The position numbers and the translations under genes were made by a program. The notes below the pieces were generated by a model. The model was not told the origin of the DNA and ran no database searches. It saw only the letters and a list, made by a program, of their open reading frames with translations. Below, in pieces: positions 1,169 through 56,308 of a stretch of 64,000 bases of DNA (position 1 is its first letter; every line of letters starts with the position of its first letter). Location of the stretch: contig NZ_JANPVN010000001.1 of assembly GCF_026157085.1 (NCBI RefSeq), forward strand, positions 62,001 through 126,000, given 5' to 3'. The DNA is from Sphingomicrobium arenosum. Lineage in GTDB: Bacteria > Pseudomonadota > Alphaproteobacteria > Sphingomonadales > Sphingomonadaceae.

Positions 1169-3478
1169 TCAAGTGAGGAGAATCTCGGCCATCGCCTCGG
1201 TGATCGCTTTTCCGTCGAGCCGGTAGGTAGCGTAGAGATCGGCGAGGTTGCCGGTCTGGCCAAAACGCTCGACGCCCAGCGGGGCGACACGCTGGCCGAG
1301 GACGCCGCCGAGCCAGGACAGCGAAGCGGGCGCGGCATCGCACAGGGTGACAAGGCCGGCACGCTGGTCGAGGCGCGACAGAAGCGTCTCGATGTGGCTC
1401 GGGGTGCGGGAGCCCTGCCAGCGGGCGGCCTGCGCCGCTGTCCAGCCGCGGTGGAGGAGGTCGGGCGAGGTGACGGCGAGGAGGCCGAGGCCGGGGATGT
1501 CGGCGGACAGTTCCTCATGAGCGGCGAGCGCTTCGGGCATCAGCGCGCCCATGGCGATGATGGCGGCCTCGGCGCCGTCCGCGGGCTCGCGCAGCCAATA
1601 GGCGCCTTGGAGCGCACCGTCTTTCCAGTCGTCATCGGCGCGCGCGACCTGTTCGACCGGGCGGGTGGAGAGGCGGAGATAGGTGCTTTCGCCATCGGGG
1701 TCGTCGATGAGGCGGAAGGCGTGCTCCATCATCGCGGCAAGTTCGTCGGCGAAGGCGGGTTCGTAATGACGGAGGCCGGGCTGGCCCATGGCGATCAGCG
1801 GCGGGTTGATCGACTGGTGCGCGCCGCCCTCGGGGCCCAGCGTCAGGCCCGACGGCGTGGCGACGAGCAGGAAGCGGGCGTCCTGATAGCAGCCGTAGTT
1901 GAGGCTATCGAGGCCGCGCGCGATGAAAGGGTCGTAGAGCGTGCCGATGGGGAACAGGCGCTCGTGCCAATGATCGCCGGTGAGACCGGCGGCGGCGAGC
2001 ATGAGGAAGAGGTTGGATTCGGCGATGCCGAGCTCGATATGCTGCCCCTGGTCGGTGGCACCCCATTTCTGCGCGCTGGGGATCTTGGCCTTGGCGAAAA
2101 CGTCTTCCATCTCGCGGCGCTTGAACAGGCCGCGGCTGTTCACCCAGGCCCCGAGGTTGGTCGAGACGGTGACGTCGGGCGAGGTGGTGACGATCCGGTC
2201 GGCGAGCTCCCCGCCTGCCTTAGACAGGTCCATGAGGATGCGGCCAAAGGCGGCCTGCGTCGATTGCTCCTCGCCCTCGGGGGCGGGAAGGGTGGGGATG
2301 GGGACCGAGCCGAAACTACGCGGGCGCTTGTCGCGCTTGATGCGGGCGGCCTCGAGCAGTGCTTCGACCTTGGGGGCCATATTGTCGGACAGGCCTGCAA
2401 GCGGGGCCCATTCCTCACCTTCGGCGATGCCGAGATCATCGCGCCACGCCTGGATCTGCGTCGGGTTCATCAGCCCAGCGTGATTGTCCTTGTGCCCTGC
2501 GAAAGGCAGGCCGAAGCCTTTCACGGTCCAGGCGATGAAGAAGGTCGGCACGTCGTCCTTCTTAGCCTCGGCAAAGGCATGAGTGAGCGTTTCCATGCAA
2601 TGGCCGCCGAGGTCGGTCATCAATTCGCCGAGCTGCTCGTCGTCCTCGTGCGCGGCGAGGAAGGCCGTGGCTTTCTTGCCAAGATCATCGGACAGGCGCT
2701 GGCGCCACGCCGCGCCGCCCTGATAATGGAGCGCGGCGAAGTCGGCGTTGGGGAGCGCTTCGAGCCAGTCGCGCACCGCCTTGCCGCCCTTGGCACCGAG
2801 CGCCTCGGTCAGCTTCTTGCCGAAACGCAATTCGACGGTGCGCCAGCCGCAGGCGGAAAAAATGTCGTCGAACCGCTCGAACATCCTGTCTGCGCTGGTC
2901 GCATCGAGGCTCTGGCGGTTGTAATCGACGATCCACCACAGGTTGCGGACGTCATGCTTGGCGCCCTCGATGATGGCCTCGTAGATATTGCCCTCGTCGA
3001 GTTCGGCATCGCCGATCAGCGCGATGAAGCGGCCCTTGTCGGCCTCGGCAAGGCGGCCATGGGCGACGAGATAATCCTGCATCAGGCTGGAGAAGAGGGT
3101 GATCGCGACGCCGAGGCCCACGCTGCCCGTCGAAAAGTCGACGGGGATGACGTCTTTGGTGCGGCTGGGATAGCTTTGCGCGCCGCCGAGGCCACGGAAA
3201 TTCTCGAGTTTCTCGCGGCTCTGCGAGCCCAAGAGATAGTGGATGGCGTGGAGGATGGGGCCGGCGTGCGGCTTGACCGCGATCCGGTCGTTCTCGTCCA
3301 TGGCGTCGAAATAGAGCGCGGCCATGATGGCGCTGATCGAGGCCGAGCTGGCCTGGTGCCCGCCGACCTTCACCCCGTCCGCCTTGGGGCGGATGTGATT
3401 GGCGTGGTGAATGGTCCAGCTGGCAAGCCAGCGCAGGCGCTCGTCGAGCGCGGCCAAGGCGGCGGTGTCGATGCTCAT
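1169..3478 (-). CDS. AceE/transketolase-like thiamine diphosphate enzyme
   Basis: A 769-residue protein resembling the homodimeric pyruvate dehydrogenase E1 (AceE) but shorter than the usual roughly 890 residues. The N-terminal half has the transketolase-type entry HHANHIRPKADGVKVGGHQA and the thiamine diphosphate/Mg motif GDAELDEGNIYEAI followed by DYNRQSLD. The middle has GLPFAGHKDNHAGLMNP, and the C-terminal half carries the pyrimidine-binding domain (QHIELGIAESNLFLM). No E2 or E3 gene adjoins it, and the branched-chain complex at 8.3-11.9 kb has its own alpha/beta E1. It may therefore act as a separate 2-oxoacid decarboxylase/transketolase. The start is the ATG at 3478, ten bases after the antiporter stop; a longer frame would invade that gene. 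Confidence 0.88.
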   Translation of the reverse strand: MSIDTAALAALDERLRWLASWTIHHANHIRPKADGVKVGGHQASSASISAIMAALYFDAMDENDRIAVKPHAGPILHAIHYLLGSQSREKLENFRGLGGAQSYPSRTKDVIPVDFSTGSVGLGVAITLFSSLMQDYLVAHGRLAEADKGRFIALIGDAELDEGNIYEAIIEGAKHDVRNLWWIVDYNRQSLDATSADRMFERFDDIFSACGWRTVELRFGKKLTEALGAKGGKAVRDWLEALPNADFAALHYQGGAAWRQRLSDDLGKKATAFLAAHEDDEQLGELMTDLGGHCMETLTHAFAEAKKDDVPTFFIAWTVKGFGLPFAGHKDNHAGLMNPTQIQAWRDDLGIAEGEEWAPLAGLSDNMAPKVEALLEAARIKRDKRPRSFGSVPIPTLPAPEGEEQSTQAAFGRILMDLSKAGGELADRIVTTSPDVTVSTNLGAWVNSRGLFKRREMEDVFAKAKIPSAQKWGATDQGQHIELGIAESNLFLMLAAAGLTGDHWHERLFPIGTLYDPFIARGLDSLNYGCYQDARFLLVATPSGLTLGPEGGAHQSINPPLIAMGQPGLRHYEPAFADELAAMMEHAFRLIDDPDGESTYLRLSTRPVEQVARADDDWKDGALQGAYWLREPADGAEAAIIAMGALMPEALAAHEELSADIPGLGLLAVTSPDLLHRGWTAAQAARWQGSRTPSHIETLLSRLDQRAGLVTLCDAAPASLSWLGGVLGQRVAPLGVERFGQTGNLADLYATYRLDGKAITEAMAEILLT

Positions 3479-3488
3479 GGTAAGCGGC

Positions 3489-4454
3489 TTAGCCGCCAGC
3501 AGCGCCCATGGCCAGCCAGCCGACATAGGCGGCATAAGCGGCGAGGAAGGCGGCGCCTTCCCAGCGTTTGATGGTCCAGCCGGTGCGCAGGAAGAGCATG
3601 AGCAAGCCGGTGGTGCCGAGCAACATCCAGATGTCGAAGGCGGCGATCTGCGGCGGCACGGCGAGGGGCTGGATGACGGCGGTGATGCCGAGAATGCCGA
3701 AGACGTTGTAAATGCAGCTGCCGACGATATTGCCGAGCGCGACGTCGGGCTCCTTCTTCATGGCGGCGGCAGCGCAGGCGACCAGTTCGGGCAGGCTCGT
3801 GCCGGCGGCGACGATGGTGAGGCCGATGACGGCCTCCGATACGCCCCAGCCGCGGGCGATGGCGGTAGCTCCGTCGATCAGGAATTGGGCGCCGAACACG
3901 ACGCCGGCGATGCCGCCTGCCGCCATGACAAGAAGGAGGAACGTGCCCGAGCGGGCCTGGGGTTTCTGGCCCTCGGCCTTTTCATGGCGCGCGCTTTCCT
4001 CATCCGCGACGCGGCGGTCGGTGAGATAGGCGGTGAGGATATAGGCGATCAGCAGCGCGACGAGGAGCAGGCCGAAACCACGCCCGAAGCCGCCGATGAA
4101 GGCGCCGACGACGATCATGATCGCGGCAAGGCTCATCGCCGCCCCGTCGCGATAGAAGGCGCGCGGCAGGATCGGGATGTGGGTGATGATCGCGGACAGG
4201 CCGAGGATCAGGAGGATGTTGGCGATGTTCGAGCCGATGACATTGCCGACCGCCATGTCTGGGACGCCCGACAAGGCGGCCTGGATGCTGGTCATCAATT
4301 CGGGCGCCGACGTGCCGAAGCCGACGATGGTGAGACCCGCGAGCAGCGGCGAGATACCGAGCTTGCGCGCAAGGCCGACAGTACCGCGAACGAGGAATTC
4401 GCCGCCGGCGGCGAGGAGGAGAAGACCAAGGAGGATGGCGAGCCAGCTGGGCAT
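3489..4454 (-). CDS. CaCA-family calcium/sodium antiporter (YrbG-like)
   Basis: A 321-residue inner-membrane protein with about ten hydrophobic helices. It shows both inverted alpha-repeats of the CaCA superfamily. The first has GFGTSAPELMTS and GNVIGSNIANILLILG; the second has AAGTSLPELVACAAAAMK and GNIVGSCIYNVFGILG. The conserved acidic residues in the two SAPE/SLPE motifs form the cation site. Members exchange Ca2+ (or another cation) for Na+ or H+; the ion cannot be told from sequence. Its length fits the YrbG group. It lies 10 bp upstream of the AceE-like gene on the same strand, which suggests co-transcription although no functional link is obvious. Confidence 0.95.
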   Translation of the reverse strand: MPSWLAILLGLLLLAAGGEFLVRGTVGLARKLGISPLLAGLTIVGFGTSAPELMTSIQAALSGVPDMAVGNVIGSNIANILLILGLSAIITHIPILPRAFYRDGAAMSLAAIMIVVGAFIGGFGRGFGLLLVALLIAYILTAYLTDRRVADEESARHEKAEGQKPQARSGTFLLLVMAAGGIAGVVFGAQFLIDGATAIARGWGVSEAVIGLTIVAAGTSLPELVACAAAAMKKEPDVALGNIVGSCIYNVFGILGITAVIQPLAVPPQIAAFDIWMLLGTTGLLMLFLRTGWTIKRWEGAAFLAAYAAYVGWLAMGAAGG

Positions 4455-17393: not shown

Positions 17394-17642
17394 TCAGGCG
17401 GGCGGGGCCGTCACCGGGACGGCACCGTCGGGATATCCCTGCGCGCGGAGGCGACGGTTGCGGCGCCATTCGAGCCCCTTCTTCACGGCCCAGCCGGCAG
17501 TGAGCGCGGCGCCGAGCGGGCCGAGGCCGCGCTTGGCAATGAAGGGAAGCGCGGCCGCCGCGGCAGTGCCGAGCGCGCCGCCGCCCAGCGTCTTGGCGAC
17601 CTGACGACCGGCAAGGCCGGTGGCGATATTACGAAACAGCAT
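17394..17642 (-). CDS. Small hydrophobic protein, divergent from the psp operon
   Basis: An 82-residue protein starting MLFRNIATGLAGRQVAKTLG, with a Gly/Ala-rich hydrophobic centre (residues 20-55) and a basic segment KKGLEWRRNRRLRAQ near the end. It looks like a small inner-membrane or membrane-associated protein; the family is not recognised. The ATG at 17642 has a good GGAGAA site. The frame is open 65 codons further, but that part covers the psp control region and is not protein-like. Because it shares the 261-bp upstream region with the sigma-54 psp promoter, it could belong to the same envelope-stress response. Confidence 0.72.
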   Translation of the reverse strand: MLFRNIATGLAGRQVAKTLGGGALGTAAAAALPFIAKRGLGPLGAALTAGWAVKKGLEWRRNRRLRAQGYPDGAVPVTAPPA

Positions 17643-17740
17643 GAAGAATTCTCCGACAGGATGAAAATGGTTCGAGCAATGAACGCACCAACCGCGTGCG
17701 GGGGTCCGAGCGAGGCGAGGCTTCGACACGCGCGGCGGGC

Positions 17741-17781
17741 GGTTGGGACCGCATCCCAACCCATGGTGGCGAATCCCACCA
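17741..17781. promoter_or_regulatory. Two tandem inverted repeats: candidate upstream activator sites of the psp promoter
   Basis: IR1 is perfect: GGTTGGGA (17741-17748) and TCCCAACC (17754-17761), spacer 5. IR2 is perfect: TGGTGG (17764-17769) and CCACCA (17776-17781), spacer 6. Their centres lie about 107 and 85 bp before the predicted start of transcription from the sigma-54 promoter, the distance at which PspF-type enhancer-binding proteins bind two sites in E. coli. The repeat sequences themselves do not match the E. coli sites as far as I can tell. Confidence 0.55.
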
Positions 17782-17799
17782 AACCGACAAAGGCGGGCG

Positions 17800-17826
17800 A
17801 AAAAACCTGGGTTTTTCGACAAAAAA
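17800..17826. promoter_or_regulatory. Phased A/T tracts (predicted bend) before the psp promoter
   Basis: A6 (17800-17805), T5 (17812-17816) and A6 (17821-17826) have centres 11.5 and 9.5 bp apart, about one helical turn each, which should give intrinsic curvature. AAAAACC and GGTTTTT (17801-17807, 17810-17816) also form an inverted repeat. The location between the activator repeats and the -24 element is where IHF-bent DNA lies in many sigma-54 promoters. Confidence 0.5.
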
Positions 17827-17831
17827 CAAAT

Positions 17832-17847
17832 TGGCACGCCCCGTGCA
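17832..17847 (+). promoter_or_regulatory. Sigma-54 (-24/-12) promoter of the psp operon
   Basis: TGGCACGCCCCGTGCA matches the RpoN consensus TGGCAC-N5-TTGC: GG at the -24 position and GC at the -12 position with the exact required spacing, and 15 of the key positions fit apart from one T to G. It lies 57 bp upstream of the first psp-operon start codon and would start transcription near 17858. Phage-shock operons are classically sigma-54 dependent and activated by PspF. Confidence 0.8.
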
Positions 17848-17903
17848 TATCATGGTCCATGCGGCCCGACGCGATGGGTCGCCCGATAATAAAGGGGAGT
17901 TTG

Positions 17904-18044
17904 ATGATCATGTTCGGCAACAATTTCCAACGCCACCTGGTGGCTGCCTTCGCCTCCATCCTGATGAGCTCGATCGCCATCGGCGCCGCCGTGGCCCCGA
18001 GCGACCTGTCCGCCAGCGCGATCGTGATGCCCGCCCATGCCTGA
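17904..18044 (+). CDS. 46-residue membrane leader protein at the head of the psp operon
   Basis: Too short for usual gene calls. The frame MIMFGNNFQRHLVAAFASIL... has a strong AAAGGGGAG ribosome binding site six bases before the ATG. A short polar N-terminus is followed by a hydrophobic helix (about residues 11-30: HLVAAFASILMSSIAIGAAV), then a Ser/Ala-rich tail. It could be a one-helix inner-membrane protein or an exported peptide with signal cleavage after the AVA region. Its stop overlaps the pspA start by 8 nt (ATGCCTGA), so its translation probably drives pspA translation. I do not recognise a family. Confidence 0.7.
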   Translation: MIMFGNNFQRHLVAAFASILMSSIAIGAAVAPSDLSASAIVMPAHA

Positions 18045-18855
18045 CCTGACCCCGATCCATGCACAGCCAAAGAAGCGCGTGCGCAACCTCGAGCCGCTGG
18101 GGCGGACCGAGAGCGCGGGGGCCGGTAACGGCGGGCGTCTCGCCCCGCTGGGCGCGATGCTGTCGGGACCGATCTTTACCCGGGCCCGCGACATCATCGC
18201 GGCCAATGTCAACGAGTTGATCGAGAAGAGCCAGGACCCGGCCAAGATGATCCGCATGATCATCATGGAAATGGAAGACGTGCTCGCCGAGACCCGCGCC
18301 ACAGCGGCCCGGGCGATCGCCGACCTGACGGAAATGCGCGCCGCGCATGGCCGTCTCGAGCAGCTCAGCCTCGACTGGCAGGGCCGCGCCGAATTGGCGC
18401 TCGAGAAAGGCCGCGAAGACCTCGCCAAGCAGGCGCTGATCGAGCGCAGCAAGGTGAGCGACATGCTCGGCAGCCTGGCGAGCGAGATGAGCGGCATCGA
18501 GGAGGTGCTGAAGGGTTATGAGGCCGACATCCAGCGGCTCCAGTCCAAGCTGCACGAGGCGCGCAGCCGGCAGGCCTCGATCGCCAGCCGCATCGAGAGC
18601 GCGATGAGCCGTGCCCGCGCCCGCGAATTGCTTTATGGTGAGCGCACCGAGGACGCATTCGCGCGGTTCGAACAGCTCGAACGCCGCGCCGACATGGCCG
18701 AGGGTCATGCCGATGCGATGGGGCTGGGCGCGAAGAGCCTCGAAGAGGAATTCGCCGAATTGAAGGCCGAGGAACGGGCGCTGGAAGCGCTCGAGGAAAT
18801 GAAGAAAGCCCGCGCGACGATGCAAGAGGCGGGCGACAAAGGGGACCGTCAATGA
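18037..18855 (+). CDS. pspA: Phage shock protein A (PspA/Vipp1-type ESCRT-III-like)
   Basis: A 272-residue PspA homologue, a coiled-coil protein that binds and stabilises stressed inner membrane and in gammaproteobacteria restrains PspF. The family core starts at LSGPIFTRARDIIAANVNEL and continues EKSQDPAKMIRMIIMEMED, then long helices (ELALEKGREDLAKQALIERS). About 40 extra residues precede the core compared with E. coli PspA (222 residues), basic and Pro/Gly-rich; a shorter start at 18157 is possible but has no good ribosome binding site, while the ATG at 18037 is coupled to the leader gene. It ends with an ATGA overlap into pspC. Confidence 0.93.
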   Translation: MPDLTPIHAQPKKRVRNLEPLGRTESAGAGNGGRLAPLGAMLSGPIFTRARDIIAANVNELIEKSQDPAKMIRMIIMEMEDVLAETRATAARAIADLTEMRAAHGRLEQLSLDWQGRAELALEKGREDLAKQALIERSKVSDMLGSLASEMSGIEEVLKGYEADIQRLQSKLHEARSRQASIASRIESAMSRARARELLYGERTEDAFARFEQLERRADMAEGHADAMGLGAKSLEEEFAELKAEERALEALEEMKKARATMQEAGDKGDRQ

Positions 18856-19295
18856 GCAAGCAGTATCGCTACAGCCTCGCCAGGGAAGACAAGAAGGTCG
18901 CGGGAGTGTGCGCCGCGGCGGGCAAGCGCTTCGGGGTCGATCCGACCTTCCTGCGCATCGCCTTCATCTTCACCTTCCTCGTCATCGAATGGGAGCTGGC
19001 GGTCGGCGCTTATATCGCCGCCGGGCTCGCGCTCACCTTCATGCGCGCCAAGGAATTGGGTGCCGGGAACACGACGGCGCGCAGCATCGAGCATAAGGCG
19101 CCGCGCGGGTCGGTCCACGACCTTCGCACCAAGCTCGACGATCGCGACCGTCGCATGATGGCGATCGACCATCACCTGTCGAGCCATGACAGCGACAAGC
19201 TGGCCCGCGAGATCGAGGAGCTGCGCGCCAAGGTCGATGCCAAGAAGGCCGAGGCGGGCAAGGATGCTGCCGCCGCCAGCGAAGGAGATGCCTGA
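18852..19295 (+). CDS. pspC: PspC-domain membrane protein
   Basis: A 147-residue protein. Residues 1-62 are a PspC domain: YRYSLAREDKKVAGVCAAAG, KRFGVDPTFLRIAFIFTFL, then a second hydrophobic stretch to about residue 58. The remaining half is a charged helical segment (HDSDKLAREIEELRAKVDAK) that could form a coiled coil with PspA or PspB. In E. coli, PspB and PspC in the membrane relay stress by pulling PspA away from PspF. Its ATG overlaps the pspA stop (ATGA) and its TGA abuts the start of the next gene (TGATG). Confidence 0.92.
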   Translation: MSKQYRYSLAREDKKVAGVCAAAGKRFGVDPTFLRIAFIFTFLVIEWELAVGAYIAAGLALTFMRAKELGAGNTTARSIEHKAPRGSVHDLRTKLDDRDRRMMAIDHHLSSHDSDKLAREIEELRAKVDAKKAEAGKDAAAASEGDA

Positions 19296-19554: not shown

Positions 19555-19586
19555 AAGGGCCCTTGCAGCGATGCAGGGGCCCTTTT
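19555..19586 (+). terminator. Rho-independent terminator of the psp operon
   Basis: AAGGGCCCTTGCA pairs with TGCAGGGGCCCTT around a short GCGA loop, with a single G-U pair, followed by TTTT. It begins 30 bp after the last psp gene. Confidence 0.85.
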
Positions 19587-19656
19587 CGGTTGGTCGCATG
19601 TGCCGGGCGCCTCATCGCTAACAAATTGGCCCACAGCCGGCCATTCATTGTCTTGA

Positions 19657-19683: not shown

Positions 19684-21768
19684 ATGATCAGCTTGCTTCT
19701 CGCATCGACCGCCCTAGCGTCCGTCCAATCCGCTTCCGCCCCGACCGACTCGCCCGCCGAAGAAGACCGTATCGTTATCACCGGCCATGTGATCGAGGGG
19801 CTCGACCTTCTTGCCGGCGCCTCGGTTGTCGAGGGCGAGGATCTGGTCCGCAGCATCGAGACGCAGGTCGGCGACGCGCTGACCGGGGTGGCGGGCGTGA
19901 GCGCCAGCAGCTTCACTCCCGGTGCCTCGCGCCCGATCCTGCGCGGCTTTTCGGGTGAGCGCGTGCGCGTCCTCAACGACGGCATCGGCTCGATCGACGT
20001 GTCCAACACCTCGGCCGACCATGCCGTGACGATCGACCCGCTGACCGCCGAGCGGATCGAGGTGCTGCGCGGGCCCGCCGTGCTGATTTTCGGCGGGCAG
20101 GCGATCGGCGGGGCGGTCAACGTGATCGACCGGCGCATCCCGCGCACCGACACCAACGAGGGATATCATGTCGATTTCCTCGGCCAGCTGCGCAGCGCCG
20201 ACGATGGATCGGCGCTGGGCGCCGCGCTCGACGTGGAACTGGTCGAAGACCTGTATTTCCATGTCGATGGCAGTTGGAACCGCGGCGAGGATCTCGAGGT
20301 CGGCGGCTTCGTCCTGTCCGATGCGCTGCGAGCCGAAGCGCTGGAGGAAGCGGCCGAGGAGCGCGAGGAAGGGCATTTCGAGGAAGCCGAGGAACTGGAG
20401 GAACTCGCCGATCTGCGCGGCGTGCTTCCCAATAGCGGGTTCGAGCAATGGTCGGCAGCGGCAGGCCTCGGATATGTCGGCGAGCGTTTCGAAGTCGGCG
20501 CATCCTACAGCATTTTCGACACCGACTATGGCGTTCCGACCCGTCCCGGCGCGCATCATCATCACGAGGAAGGCGAGGAAGGCGAGGAAGAAGAGGGCGA
20601 GGAAATGGTGTCGATCGGCATGCGGCAGGAGCGGCTCGACGCGCGCGCGCGTGTCAATCTCGACGGTTTCTTCGAGCATGCCACGCTGCGTCTTGCCACC
20701 GCCGACTATACCCACACCGAATTCGAGGGCGAGGAAGTCGGCACGGTGTTCGATTCCTCGGGCTTCGAAGCGCGGTTTGAGCTCAAGCAGGCCGATCGCG
20801 ACGGGCTCCATGGCGCTTTCGGCGTGCAATATTATGCGCGCGAGTTTGACGCCGTGGGCGCAGAAGCGTTTCTGCGCGACAATGAGACGACGAGCTTCGG
20901 CATCTTCGCGCTCGAGGAATTCCAGCCCGGCGCGCTGGGTATCGAGGCCGCCGCGCGGATCGATTTCACCGAGCACGACAGTGGCTTTTTCGACATCAGC
21001 CGCAATTTCACGACGGTCTCGGGGGCGCTCGGCACCAATTACGAGGTCGGGCCCGACGCCACCATTGGCGCCAACCTGTCCTATACCGAGCGTGCGCCGA
21101 GCCCTGAGGAGCTGTTCTCCGACGGGCCGCATATCGCCACCTCGGCCTTCGAGGTGGGCGATCCGGACCTTGGCGTCGAAAGCAGCGTGGGCGGCGAATT
21201 GTTCGCTCGTTACGAGAGCCGTGCGGTCGCCGCGCGGGCGACGCTATGGGCCAATTGGTTCGACGATTTCGTCTACGAGGCAGATACGGGACTGGAAGAG
21301 GACGAATTGCCGCTGTTCGAATATCGCCAGCAGGGCGCCGATTTCTGGGGTGTCGAGCTCGAGGCGTCCGCGCCGCTGTGGCAGGACGGGCGCTGGAGCG
21401 TGGAGGGCGACGTCGTCGCCGATTATATCCGCGCCACGCTGGAAGACGGCTCGCCCGTGCCGCGGATCCCGCCGCTGCGGGTCGGTGCCGGGCTGAGCGT
21501 GTCACGCGATACGCTGTCGGTGCGCGGCGAGGTGGAGCGGGTTGCGGCGCAGGAGCGCACGGCGGCGTTCGAGACCGACACCGACGGCTTCACCATGGTC
21601 AACGGCTCGGTGAGCTGGAAGCCCTTGGGCGAGGATAGCGAGACGGTGCTGATGCTTCAGGCCAACAACATCTTCGACGTTACCGCGCGGCGCCATGCGA
21701 GCTTCACCAAGGACTTCGCGCCGCTGGCCGGGCGCGATATCCGGGCGACGGTGCGACTGAGCTTCTAG
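19684..21768 (+). CDS. ZnuD-like TonB-dependent outer-membrane receptor
   Basis: A 694-residue receptor. A short signal peptide (MISLLLASTALASVQSASA) precedes a TonB-box-like segment (EDRIVITGH), a plug domain (PILRGFSGERVRVLNDGIGS, ADHAVTIDPLTAERIEVLRG, IFGGQAIGGAVNVIDRRIPR) and a beta-barrel ending in ATVRLSF. The plug motifs match the ZnuD zinc-receptor group. Two extracellular-type insertions are remarkable: an acidic one (residues about 215-245) and HHHHEEGEEGEEEEGEE (about 298-314), suited to binding Zn2+ or another cation. It would import a metal or metallophore with TonB energy. It follows the psp terminator, so it is a separate unit. Confidence 0.93.
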   Translation: MISLLLASTALASVQSASAPTDSPAEEDRIVITGHVIEGLDLLAGASVVEGEDLVRSIETQVGDALTGVAGVSASSFTPGASRPILRGFSGERVRVLNDGIGSIDVSNTSADHAVTIDPLTAERIEVLRGPAVLIFGGQAIGGAVNVIDRRIPRTDTNEGYHVDFLGQLRSADDGSALGAALDVELVEDLYFHVDGSWNRGEDLEVGGFVLSDALRAEALEEAAEEREEGHFEEAEELEELADLRGVLPNSGFEQWSAAAGLGYVGERFEVGASYSIFDTDYGVPTRPGAHHHHEEGEEGEEEEGEEMVSIGMRQERLDARARVNLDGFFEHATLRLATADYTHTEFEGEEVGTVFDSSGFEARFELKQADRDGLHGAFGVQYYAREFDAVGAEAFLRDNETTSFGIFALEEFQPGALGIEAAARIDFTEHDSGFFDISRNFTTVSGALGTNYEVGPDATIGANLSYTERAPSPEELFSDGPHIATSAFEVGDPDLGVESSVGGELFARYESRAVAARATLWANWFDDFVYEADTGLEEDELPLFEYRQQGADFWGVELEASAPLWQDGRWSVEGDVVADYIRATLEDGSPVPRIPPLRVGAGLSVSRDTLSVRGEVERVAAQERTAAFETDTDGFTMVNGSVSWKPLGEDSETVLMLQANNIFDVTARRHASFTKDFAPLAGRDIRATVRLSF

Positions 21769-21949: not shown

Positions 21950-26200
<4,251 letters not shown>

Positions 26201-54937: not shown

Positions 54938-56308
54938 CTACGCGCTGAGCTTATATTGCTTCATGAGGTCGTAGAGGGTGGGGCGGCTGATGCCGAGGAG
55001 CTTGGCGGCCCCCGAGATATTGTGGTCGGTGCGGGTCAGCGCCTGGGCGATCGCCTTGCGGTCGGCGATCTCGCGCGCGGCGCGAAGGTTGATCGGGCTC
55101 GCGCCGTCGCCGTCGATGTTGGACTGAAGGTCGAGATCGCCTGCGGTGACGAGCTTGCCATCGGCCATGATGACGGCGCGCTTGATGCGGTTTTCCAATT
55201 CGCGGACATTGCCCGGCCAGGGGTGCTCGTCCACCGCCTCGACCGCATCGGGCGCGAGACCGTTGAGGCTGCGGCCCAGTTCCTTGGCATATTTGTCGGT
55301 GAAATAGCGCGCGAGCAGCACCGCATCGCCGGTCCGCTGCGCGAGCGGCGGGATGGGCACGACGATCTCGGCAAGACGGTAATAGAGATCCTCGCGGAAG
55401 CTTCCTTCGGCGGTCATGCCGTCGAGGTCGCGGTGGGTGGCGCAGACGATGCGGGTGTCGACCGCGATAGGCTTGCGACCGCCGATGCGTTCGATGACGC
55501 GTTCCTGGAGGAAGCGCAGCAGCTTGACCTGCAGCGGGAGGGGGATGTCGCCGACTTCGTCGAGGAAGAGCGTGCCGCCGATCGCCATCTCGATCTTGCC
55601 GGGCGTGGTCTTTACCGCGCCGGTAAAGGCCCCGCGTTCATAGCCGAACAACTCGGCCTCGAGCAGGTTCTCGGGGATGGCGGCGCAGTTGATGGCGACG
55701 AAGGCGCCGCCCTTTCGCGGGCTCTGGTCATGAACCGCGCGGGCCAGCAATTCCTTGCCGGTGCCCGACGCGCCGAGCAGCATGACCGAGACATCGGCGG
55801 AGGCGACGCGTTCGATGGTGTGCGCGACCTTGAGCATTTCCGGGCTGGCCGAGACGATCGAGCCGAGTACGGTCTGGCTCTCGCTCGCGGTCGCTTCGAG
55901 ACGGCGGTTCTCGGTCTCGATCTCGTGAAGCTGGAAGGCGCGTTTAACGATATGGCCAAGCTCGTCGATATCGACGGGCTTGCGATAGAAATCATAGGCC
56001 CCGTTGGCGATGGCCTTCAACGCGCTCTCGCGCGCGCCATGGCCCGAGGCGACGATGACCTTGGTGTCGGGCTTCAAGCTCTGGATTTCGGCAAGCGTGG
56101 CGAAGCCTTCGGTGACGCCGTCTGGATCGGGCGGCAGGCCGAGATCGAGGGTGACGACGGCGGGTTCGTGCAGCCGCAGCATGTCGATCGCCTGCGCCCG
56201 GTTGGTCGCCGCGACGACCTCATAATCCTCATACGCCCATTTCAACTGGCGTTGCAGGCCCTCGTCATCCTCGACGACGAGCAGGATGGGGCGAGTGGAC
56301 TTGGTCAT
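54938..56308 (-). CDS. prsR: PrsR-type sigma-54 response regulator
   Basis: A 456-residue enhancer-binding regulator, of the PrsR type that works with PEP-CTERM/EPS systems. Receiver domain (residues 1-125) with [23 protein letters not shown]+ domain with Walker [18 protein letters not shown], the sigma-54-contacting [13 protein letters not shown] loop, Walker [19 protein letters not shown]-terminal Fis-type helix with [20 protein letters not shown]. It overlaps prsK by 4 nt. As a sigma-54 activator it needs -24/-12 promoters; in this window one such promoter lies at 17832, though a PspF is the more likely activator there. Confidence 0.95.

Follow-up and report, generated by a model that had tools for sequence, protein, structure and literature searches.

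The sequence upstream of a psp-type operon of Sphingomicrobium arenosum raises two questions: which activator opens its promoter, and how that activator is brought into contact with the polymerase. The window (the whole 64-kb stretch of DNA analysed) corresponds to bases 62001-126000 of contig C1 in a genome of 2.56 Mb. The original prediction placed in it the sigma-54 control region of a psp operon. The control region was confirmed and is conserved in the genus; the operon is psp-type but not the canonical one, being a second, divergent psp operon. We regard it as quite probable that the region is the PspF-dependent sigma-54 promoter of this second operon, and that its A/T tracts bend the DNA in the stead of IHF.

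Layout of the control region and operon

Coordinates of all features are given in Table 1. Dyad 2, whose arms are shorter than the 7-nt floor of the inverted-repeat scan, was read directly from the sequence. The transcript would be expected to start near 17858, and the strong ribosome binding site that had been predicted is present. For the 3′ end of the operon, the terminator scan gave a single plus-strand candidate at 19627-19643; a long stem rich in G+C with a few T behind it, seen by eye at about 19555-19584 and absent from the scan list, is a possible terminator. The closest named relative found was Sphingomicrobium astaxanthinifaciens, with 89% identity in PspA2.

Table 1. Positions of the control elements and genes in the window
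Feature	Position	Strand	Remark
Divergent 82-aa gene	17394-17642	minus	Upstream border of control region
Dyad 1, distal enhancer-like site, GGTTGGGA-N5-TCCCAACC	17741-17761	plus	8-bp perfect arms
Dyad 2, proximal enhancer-like site, TGGTGG-N6-CCACCA (TGGTGG-N5-CCCACCA)	17764-17781	plus	6-bp perfect arms
A6 tract	17800-17805	plus	Position not conserved in genus
T5 tract, first conserved A/T-run position	17812-17816	plus	Run of A or T kept in 55/56 orthologues
A6 tract, second conserved A/T-run position	17821-17826	plus	Run of A or T kept in 53/56 orthologues
-24/-12 element, TTGGCACGCCCCGTGCA	17831-17847	plus	One mismatch to TGGCAC-N5-TTGCW
Ribosome binding site (SD), GGGGAG	17894-17899	plus	Read from sequence
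ORF for a small hydrophobic peptide of 44 aa, heading the operon	17910-18044	plus	ATG at 17910; 17904 possible start
PspA2, 272 aa, PspA paralogue with N-terminal extension of about 45 residues	18037-18855	plus	
PspC2, 147 aa, divergent PspC-domain protein	18852-19295	plus	
Small protein, 76 aa	19295-19525	plus	One apparent membrane segment (by eye)

Three observations concern the flanks. The divergent 82-aa gene gave tblastn matches (E ≤ 0.01) in 28 of 56 PspA2 loci, the window's own counted. A divergent minus-strand sigma-54 promoter (17690-17675) was considered and rejected, as it has no conserved place in the 18 loci inspected (the window plus 17). The gene for a TonB-dependent receptor (19684-21768) encodes a His/Glu-rich stretch, HHHHEEGEEGEEEEGEE, perhaps for metal.

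Conservation of the -24/-12 element

The GG and GC of the element lie 12 bp apart, as in sigma-54 promoters, and the near-consensus -24/-12 promoter of the original prediction was borne out, the element being kept in 56/56 orthologues taken. A scan of the genome allowing one mismatch returned 153 places, against 146 for the reversed control, so that a single match means nothing by itself; conservation rather than the window's single matches is what counts.

To assemble orthologous promoters, PspA2 was used as query and gave a match in 70 of the 71 genomes of the genus; 58 had at least two, some of the additional ones weak. Fifty-six matches were assigned to the PspA2 type according to the point at which their match to the N-terminal extension starts, with partial matches left out; the corresponding loci comprised 30 given and 26 fetched, two of them from one assembly (G329). 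Further sets consisted of 34 canonical promoters (window's own genome excluded) and 30 promoters of pspC3 matches (C3 set). A -24/-12 score of at least 36 of 43, a cut-off set after seeing the scores, was reached by 56/56 PspA2, 33/34 canonical and 27/30 pspC3-type promoters; L137, L118, L119 and L121 fell short of it. Within these sequences the runner-up sites score up to 37 (PspA2) and 38 (canonical), and the weight is therefore carried not by the score but by the constant place of the element, which in the 30 loci holding the gene lies 178-218 bp upstream of the PspA2 start. At locus L063 a looser first scan had ranked another site higher. Outside the genus, matching architecture precedes pspA divergent to pspF (25 loci examined), and in each of the 25, which were the best-scoring loci, a PspF-like gene is marked by its Walker A motif just upstream on the opposite strand.

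A/T tracts upstream of the promoter

Three A/T tracts in helical phase had been predicted in the spacer. In the window they are near phase, with centre spacings of 11.5 and 9.5 bp rather than exactly 10.5, but the position of the first is not conserved, and the phasing seen in the window by itself is matched by 12% of shuffles. Across the 56 PspA2 promoters, the fraction with an A/T run of three or more is 0.61-0.96 at -20 to -16 and 0.79-0.95 at -10 to -7, falls to 0.00-0.04 between the two runs and is at most 0.20 from -45 to -21. The two kept runs are one helical turn apart. The first is T in 46 promoters, A in 9 and neither in 1, and the second is A in 27, T in 26 and neither in 3, with at least four switches of identity in the first run and three in the second on a 30-row tree. 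A run of either A or T at a fixed helical phase is expected of shape and not of a base-reading protein, and this pattern suggests that the DNA's own bend, rather than a bending protein, helps the promoter work.

In canonical promoters runs recur near -83, -60, -39 and -28 and more weakly at -18, in steps of about 10.5 bp. Power at 10.5 bp was 8.38 against 4.82 in shuffles for the PspA2 set and 9.82 against 5.01 for the canonical set, with 0/200 shuffled sets reaching each value. Phasing z-scores were 11.1 for PspA2 (flanks -0.5 and 1.0) and 9.9 for canonical promoters (flanks 3.4 and 5.9), values to be read with the reservation that, the sequences being related, shuffles understate the noise, and that the canonical flanks also exceed the null. 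For the C3 set z was 2.8 (flanks 1.6 and 0.1) and outside the genus 2.9 (flanks 4.7 and -1.4); with signals this weak or matched by a flank, the phasing claim rests on the PspA2 and canonical sets. Phasing outside the genus had been considered as support and was withdrawn because one flanking control (z 4.7) beats the promoter (z 2.9).

The same PspF/sigma-54 promoter could instead use the conserved runs as an UP-like element for alpha-CTD, with no loop-assisting bend. The conserved runs lie about 34-37 and 43-47 bp upstream of the expected start, a region in which alpha-CTD subsites are commonly found, and the interchangeability of A and T also fits minor-groove reading; the canonical runs, however, extend far upstream in steps of about 10.5 bp, for which an alpha-CTD site has no need, and we consider this alternative rather unlikely.

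Intrinsic curvature was predicted with a wedge model. The largest mean predicted bend lies at -17 to -9 in PspA2 promoters and at -41 to -33 in canonical ones, with modest mean z-scores (1.1 PspA2, 1.3 canonical, 0.45 C3). Of all 56, the window promoter is predicted to bend most (66.8 degrees, z 3.1), and the bend of its close relatives L036-L038 is not above shuffles (z 0.05, 0.41 and -0.71). An imperfect inverted repeat at 17798-17818, with the first two A/T tracts as arms, was rejected as a binding site since it was not seen in the orthologues inspected by eye.

IHF sites were sought by consensus only. At up to two mismatches, observed and expected values were 0.41 and 0.42 for PspA2 promoters, so that the stretch between enhancer and promoter has no enrichment over shuffles there, 0.42 and 0.58 for canonical, 0.48 and 0.40 for C3 and 0.32 and 0.56 outside the genus; at up to one mismatch they were 0.05 and 0.06, 0.06 and 0.11, 0.11 and 0.05, and 0.20 and 0.10, respectively. 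The E. coli psp promoter, included as a single control, has an IHF match at up to one mismatch, as do 0.33 of its own shuffles, and its A/T phasing is not above shuffles.

IHF or another nucleoid protein might nevertheless bind between the dyads and the promoter at a site missed by such a scan. IHF assists PspF at E. coli psp promoters, according to passages of PMC3709507, its sites are degenerate, and the consensus exceeds expectation at up to one mismatch in the C3 and outside sets, and in C3 also at up to two. Neither the PspA2 nor the canonical set is enriched at either threshold, however, and the conserved blocks consist of A/T runs that change between the two bases, so that we hold a missed IHF site to be improbable. 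Curvature in the place of IHF, as originally proposed, is thus favoured by the phased, A/T-interchangeable tracts together with the lack of IHF enrichment; as read from sequence it is an attractive, still unproven explanation.

Enhancer-like dyads and the activator

A search of the genome for the sigma-54 DNA-binding domain gave rpoN as the sole match (PF04552, E 8.3e-61). The sigma-54 activator domain gave six matches over the Pfam cut-off; among the four strongest, three have a receiver domain and one (C1:851946-852950) does not. This last is one clear PspF, the AAA+ protein without receiver domain for which a search had been proposed: it scores 487.3 bits against TIGR02974 (cut-off 443.55), contains Sigma54_activat and the Fis-type HTH_8 without Response_reg, and is identical to E. 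coli PspF in 170 of 341 aligned columns (50%), with Trp56 kept. The gene lies about 772 kb from the window promoter, in keeping with the original statement that no pspF adjoins the operon and that the activator is encoded elsewhere; it is divergent to the canonical pspA, behind which lie pspB and pspC, and each of these three exceeds its TIGR cut-off. In the genus, PspF is over the cut-off in 66 of 71 genomes and matches at E ≤ 0.001 in 71. The window itself encodes one of the three activators with a receiver domain, an NtrC-type protein (54938-56308, minus strand) whose gene overlaps an upstream same-strand ORF.

Both inverted repeats are perfect in the window, as had been noted, but in orthologues dyad 1, although kept as a site, is mostly an imperfect palindrome (by eye). 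Exact TGGTGG-N5-CCCACCA occurs at three places in the 2.56-Mb genome (four listed matches, one palindromic): in the window promoter, in the stretch separating pspF from pspA, and at C1:780444, where a lone pspC-like gene follows. A -24/-12 element lies downstream of these at 68, 92 and 71 bp, respectively. With up to two mismatches, the dyad has 105 matches in the genome, against 48 for the reversed control. The gene at C1:780444 encodes a 97-aa PspC-like protein (TIGR02978, 19.4 bits, below the cut-off of 104), and the 721-aa ORF ahead of it looks like rpoD. An 18-bp dyad at three places, each before a -24/-12 element, makes the window promoter most likely one of three PspF targets. That these places have the dyad in common is the strongest evidence that PspF would control the window promoter, and its presence in the pspF-pspA region indicates that the dyads, taken at first as possible enhancer sites, are very likely those of PspF. 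That the dyads bind another NtrC-type activator or a repressor, with PspF inactive here, is highly improbable: three further sigma-54 activators with receiver domains are encoded in the genome and dyads suit many regulators, but the exact dyad is common only to the pspF-adjacent promoter and the pspC-like gene, and the 4-9-4 layout is that of the E. coli psp region.

A near-exact dyad was found in 16 of 296 genomes of the order sample, namely 12 of the genus's 22 (G000 included) and four others. Since the site is looser outside the genus, exact patterns were dropped and TTGG-N9-CCAA was used, a motif framed after inspecting orthologue sequences; dyad 1 contains it at 8/8 at -88 (locus L035). 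At 7/8 or better, 112 sites are present in the 56 PspA2 promoters, with at least one in every promoter taken; among canonical and pspC3-type promoters, only 22 of 33 and 18 of 27, respectively, have such a site. Sites per promoter number 1.98 (PspA2), 0.82 (canonical) and 0.85 (pspC3-type), against 0.13, 0.12 and 0.10 in dinucleotide shuffles. In PspA2 promoters they lie mainly at about -90 and -67, counted from the first T of TTGGCAC, and a second register is found near -80 and -56. A gapped pattern search in the genus had matches in 62 of 71 genomes, psp-like targets among them; as matches also fall inside genes (for example at window position 23592), no regulon count was drawn from the pattern. 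Further PspF-type promoters were seen in other species before ORFs of 61-69 aa that look PspC-like by eye (L182, L183, L188 and L189), with a small peptide ORF visible in L183 and L189.

Products of the operon

The first gene is a 44-codon ORF and not pspA, and its stop overlaps the PspA2 start by 8 nt (ATGCCTGA, 18037-18044). The overlap, ATGCC followed by TGA, TAA or TAG, was found in 45 of 56 PspA2 loci, the pattern leaving the other 11 unassigned. Differences among peptide genes fall mostly on the third codon position: in one group of five the count is 136 against 80 and 22, and in the group of three to which the window belongs it is 25 against 6 and 6. A profile built from eight peptides matched 881 proteins; among the 120 matches listed, none has a Pfam domain, and the names given there are 'hypothetical' or 'uncharacterized'. 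Outside the genus, a small hydrophobic ORF lies between promoter and pspA in 21 of 25 pspF/pspA loci, as judged with a loose pattern. The peptide would seem to have belonged to the operon from the outset in this family and to have been retained in the second operon of Sphingomicrobium. A 'VG-P' membrane peptide family was observed to head psp operons in Sphingomonadaceae (window 17910-18044, L067-L091). At L184, L185 and L193 (G208, G302 and G301), a PspF-type promoter is followed by a peptide, an ORF of 53-59 aa in place of PspA2 and a PspC-like ORF, as named by eye; the 53-59 aa ORF is perhaps a remnant of the N-terminal arm.

PspA2 contains the PspA_IM30 domain (91.1 bits, Pfam cut-off 33.9) and lies below the NCBIfam equivalog cut-off (225.8 of 242.95 bits). 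PspC2 likewise has its Pfam domain and is below the equivalog cut-off (51.2 of 104 bits). The 76-aa protein belongs to no family in Pfam or NCBIfam and shows no meaningful similarity to PspB of this genome (E 1.8); PspB was not found in the window operon. The window operon is not a canonical pspABC operon in its setting either, since pspF adjoins the other pspA. In a tree of 74 PspA domains, all 30 PspA2 rows fall on one side of a branch with support 99/95. In the family sample, for which up to 10 candidates were scored per genome, about 207 of 244 genomes outside the genus hold one PspA match and 14 none (by count). A third, weak PspA/IM30-family protein was matched at C1:2391442 (2802-3578 of locus L014, E 1.8e-9).

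Proposed mechanism and comparison with known systems

Under the preferred reading, membrane stress would draw PspA off PspF. Contact between the two proteins and its release are described for E. coli in parts of PMC6003685 and PMC9239133, and are inferred for Sphingomicrobium because the proteins are conserved. Freed PspF would assemble on the two dyads, whose centres lie about 107 and 85 bp upstream of the expected start, contact sigma-54 polymerase at -24/-12 through a DNA loop and open the promoter, with the A/T tracts just upstream of -24 probably bending the spacer intrinsically and standing in for IHF. The operon of peptide, pspA2, pspC2 and small membrane protein would then be transcribed, and one PspF would serve three promoters.

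The arrangement resembles E. coli pspF/pspABCDE in its -24/-12 promoter and its two upstream activating sequences, and PspA2 is 43% identical to E. coli PspA over the shared part. Upstream of E. coli pspA, 80 bp before -24, lies TTAG-N9-CTAA, a PspF site with the 4-9-4 layout of TTGG-N9-CCAA. The window differs from that system in that its activator gene is not adjacent, the half-sites are TTGG/CCAA and not TTAG/CTAA, the first gene is a small peptide, and its promoter set has phased A/T runs without IHF consensus enrichment, whereas the E. coli promoter works with IHF. The two activating sequences of E. coli are described in sections of PMC3709507, and pspG, a second PspF target unlinked from pspF, in sections of PMC3709507 and PMC9239133. 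Like pspG, the window has a PspF-type promoter away from pspF; unlike pspG, it holds a whole operon with a PspA paralogue, and there is a third promoter before a lone pspC-like gene.

A/T-rich stretches made IHF dispensable at other sigma-54 promoters, as stated in portions of PMC3897727, which cites Cheema 1999 for A/T tracts having this effect at nifLA of Klebsiella. The likeness to nifLA, as far as that source goes, lies in A/T tracts between activator site and promoter; the window case differs in that its evidence is evolutionary, the tracts having been kept while A and T were exchanged. Multiple PspA copies per genome in differing contexts are reported in parts of PMC9239133 and PMC11237479; compared with other PspA paralogues, PspA2 has the N-terminal extension, the overlap with the peptide ORF and a PspF-type promoter. 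The main text of the two papers has 0 occurrences of 'sphingo'. Searches among open-licence PMC papers found none that deals with psp in sphingomonads, and a literature search on A-tracts likewise found none.

A broader reading, which we advance tentatively and at somewhat less than even confidence, is that in Sphingomicrobium one PspF governs three or more scattered sigma-54 promoters, selected for a curvature that replaces IHF and in which A and T runs are freely exchanged while their helical phase stays fixed, and that this regulon includes a new psp component, a small 'VG-P' membrane peptide. Encoded by the first gene, the peptide would be coupled through the 8-nt overlap to the PspA paralogue that has the N-terminal arm; as a peptide of this kind lies between promoter and pspA in the pspF-adjacent operon outside the genus, it would be a general and so far unnoticed Psp protein of Sphingomonadaceae. 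The PspA paralogue may then be a second brake on PspF or serve another membrane target.

The locus makes it possible to read, from the DNA of an alphaproteobacterial genus, a PspF regulon together with its site and its unlinked targets. Runs of fixed position in which A and T replace each other provide a natural test of whether an enhancer-dependent promoter can rely on DNA shape alone in place of IHF, and the peptide and the N-extended PspA are concrete new candidates for Psp function.
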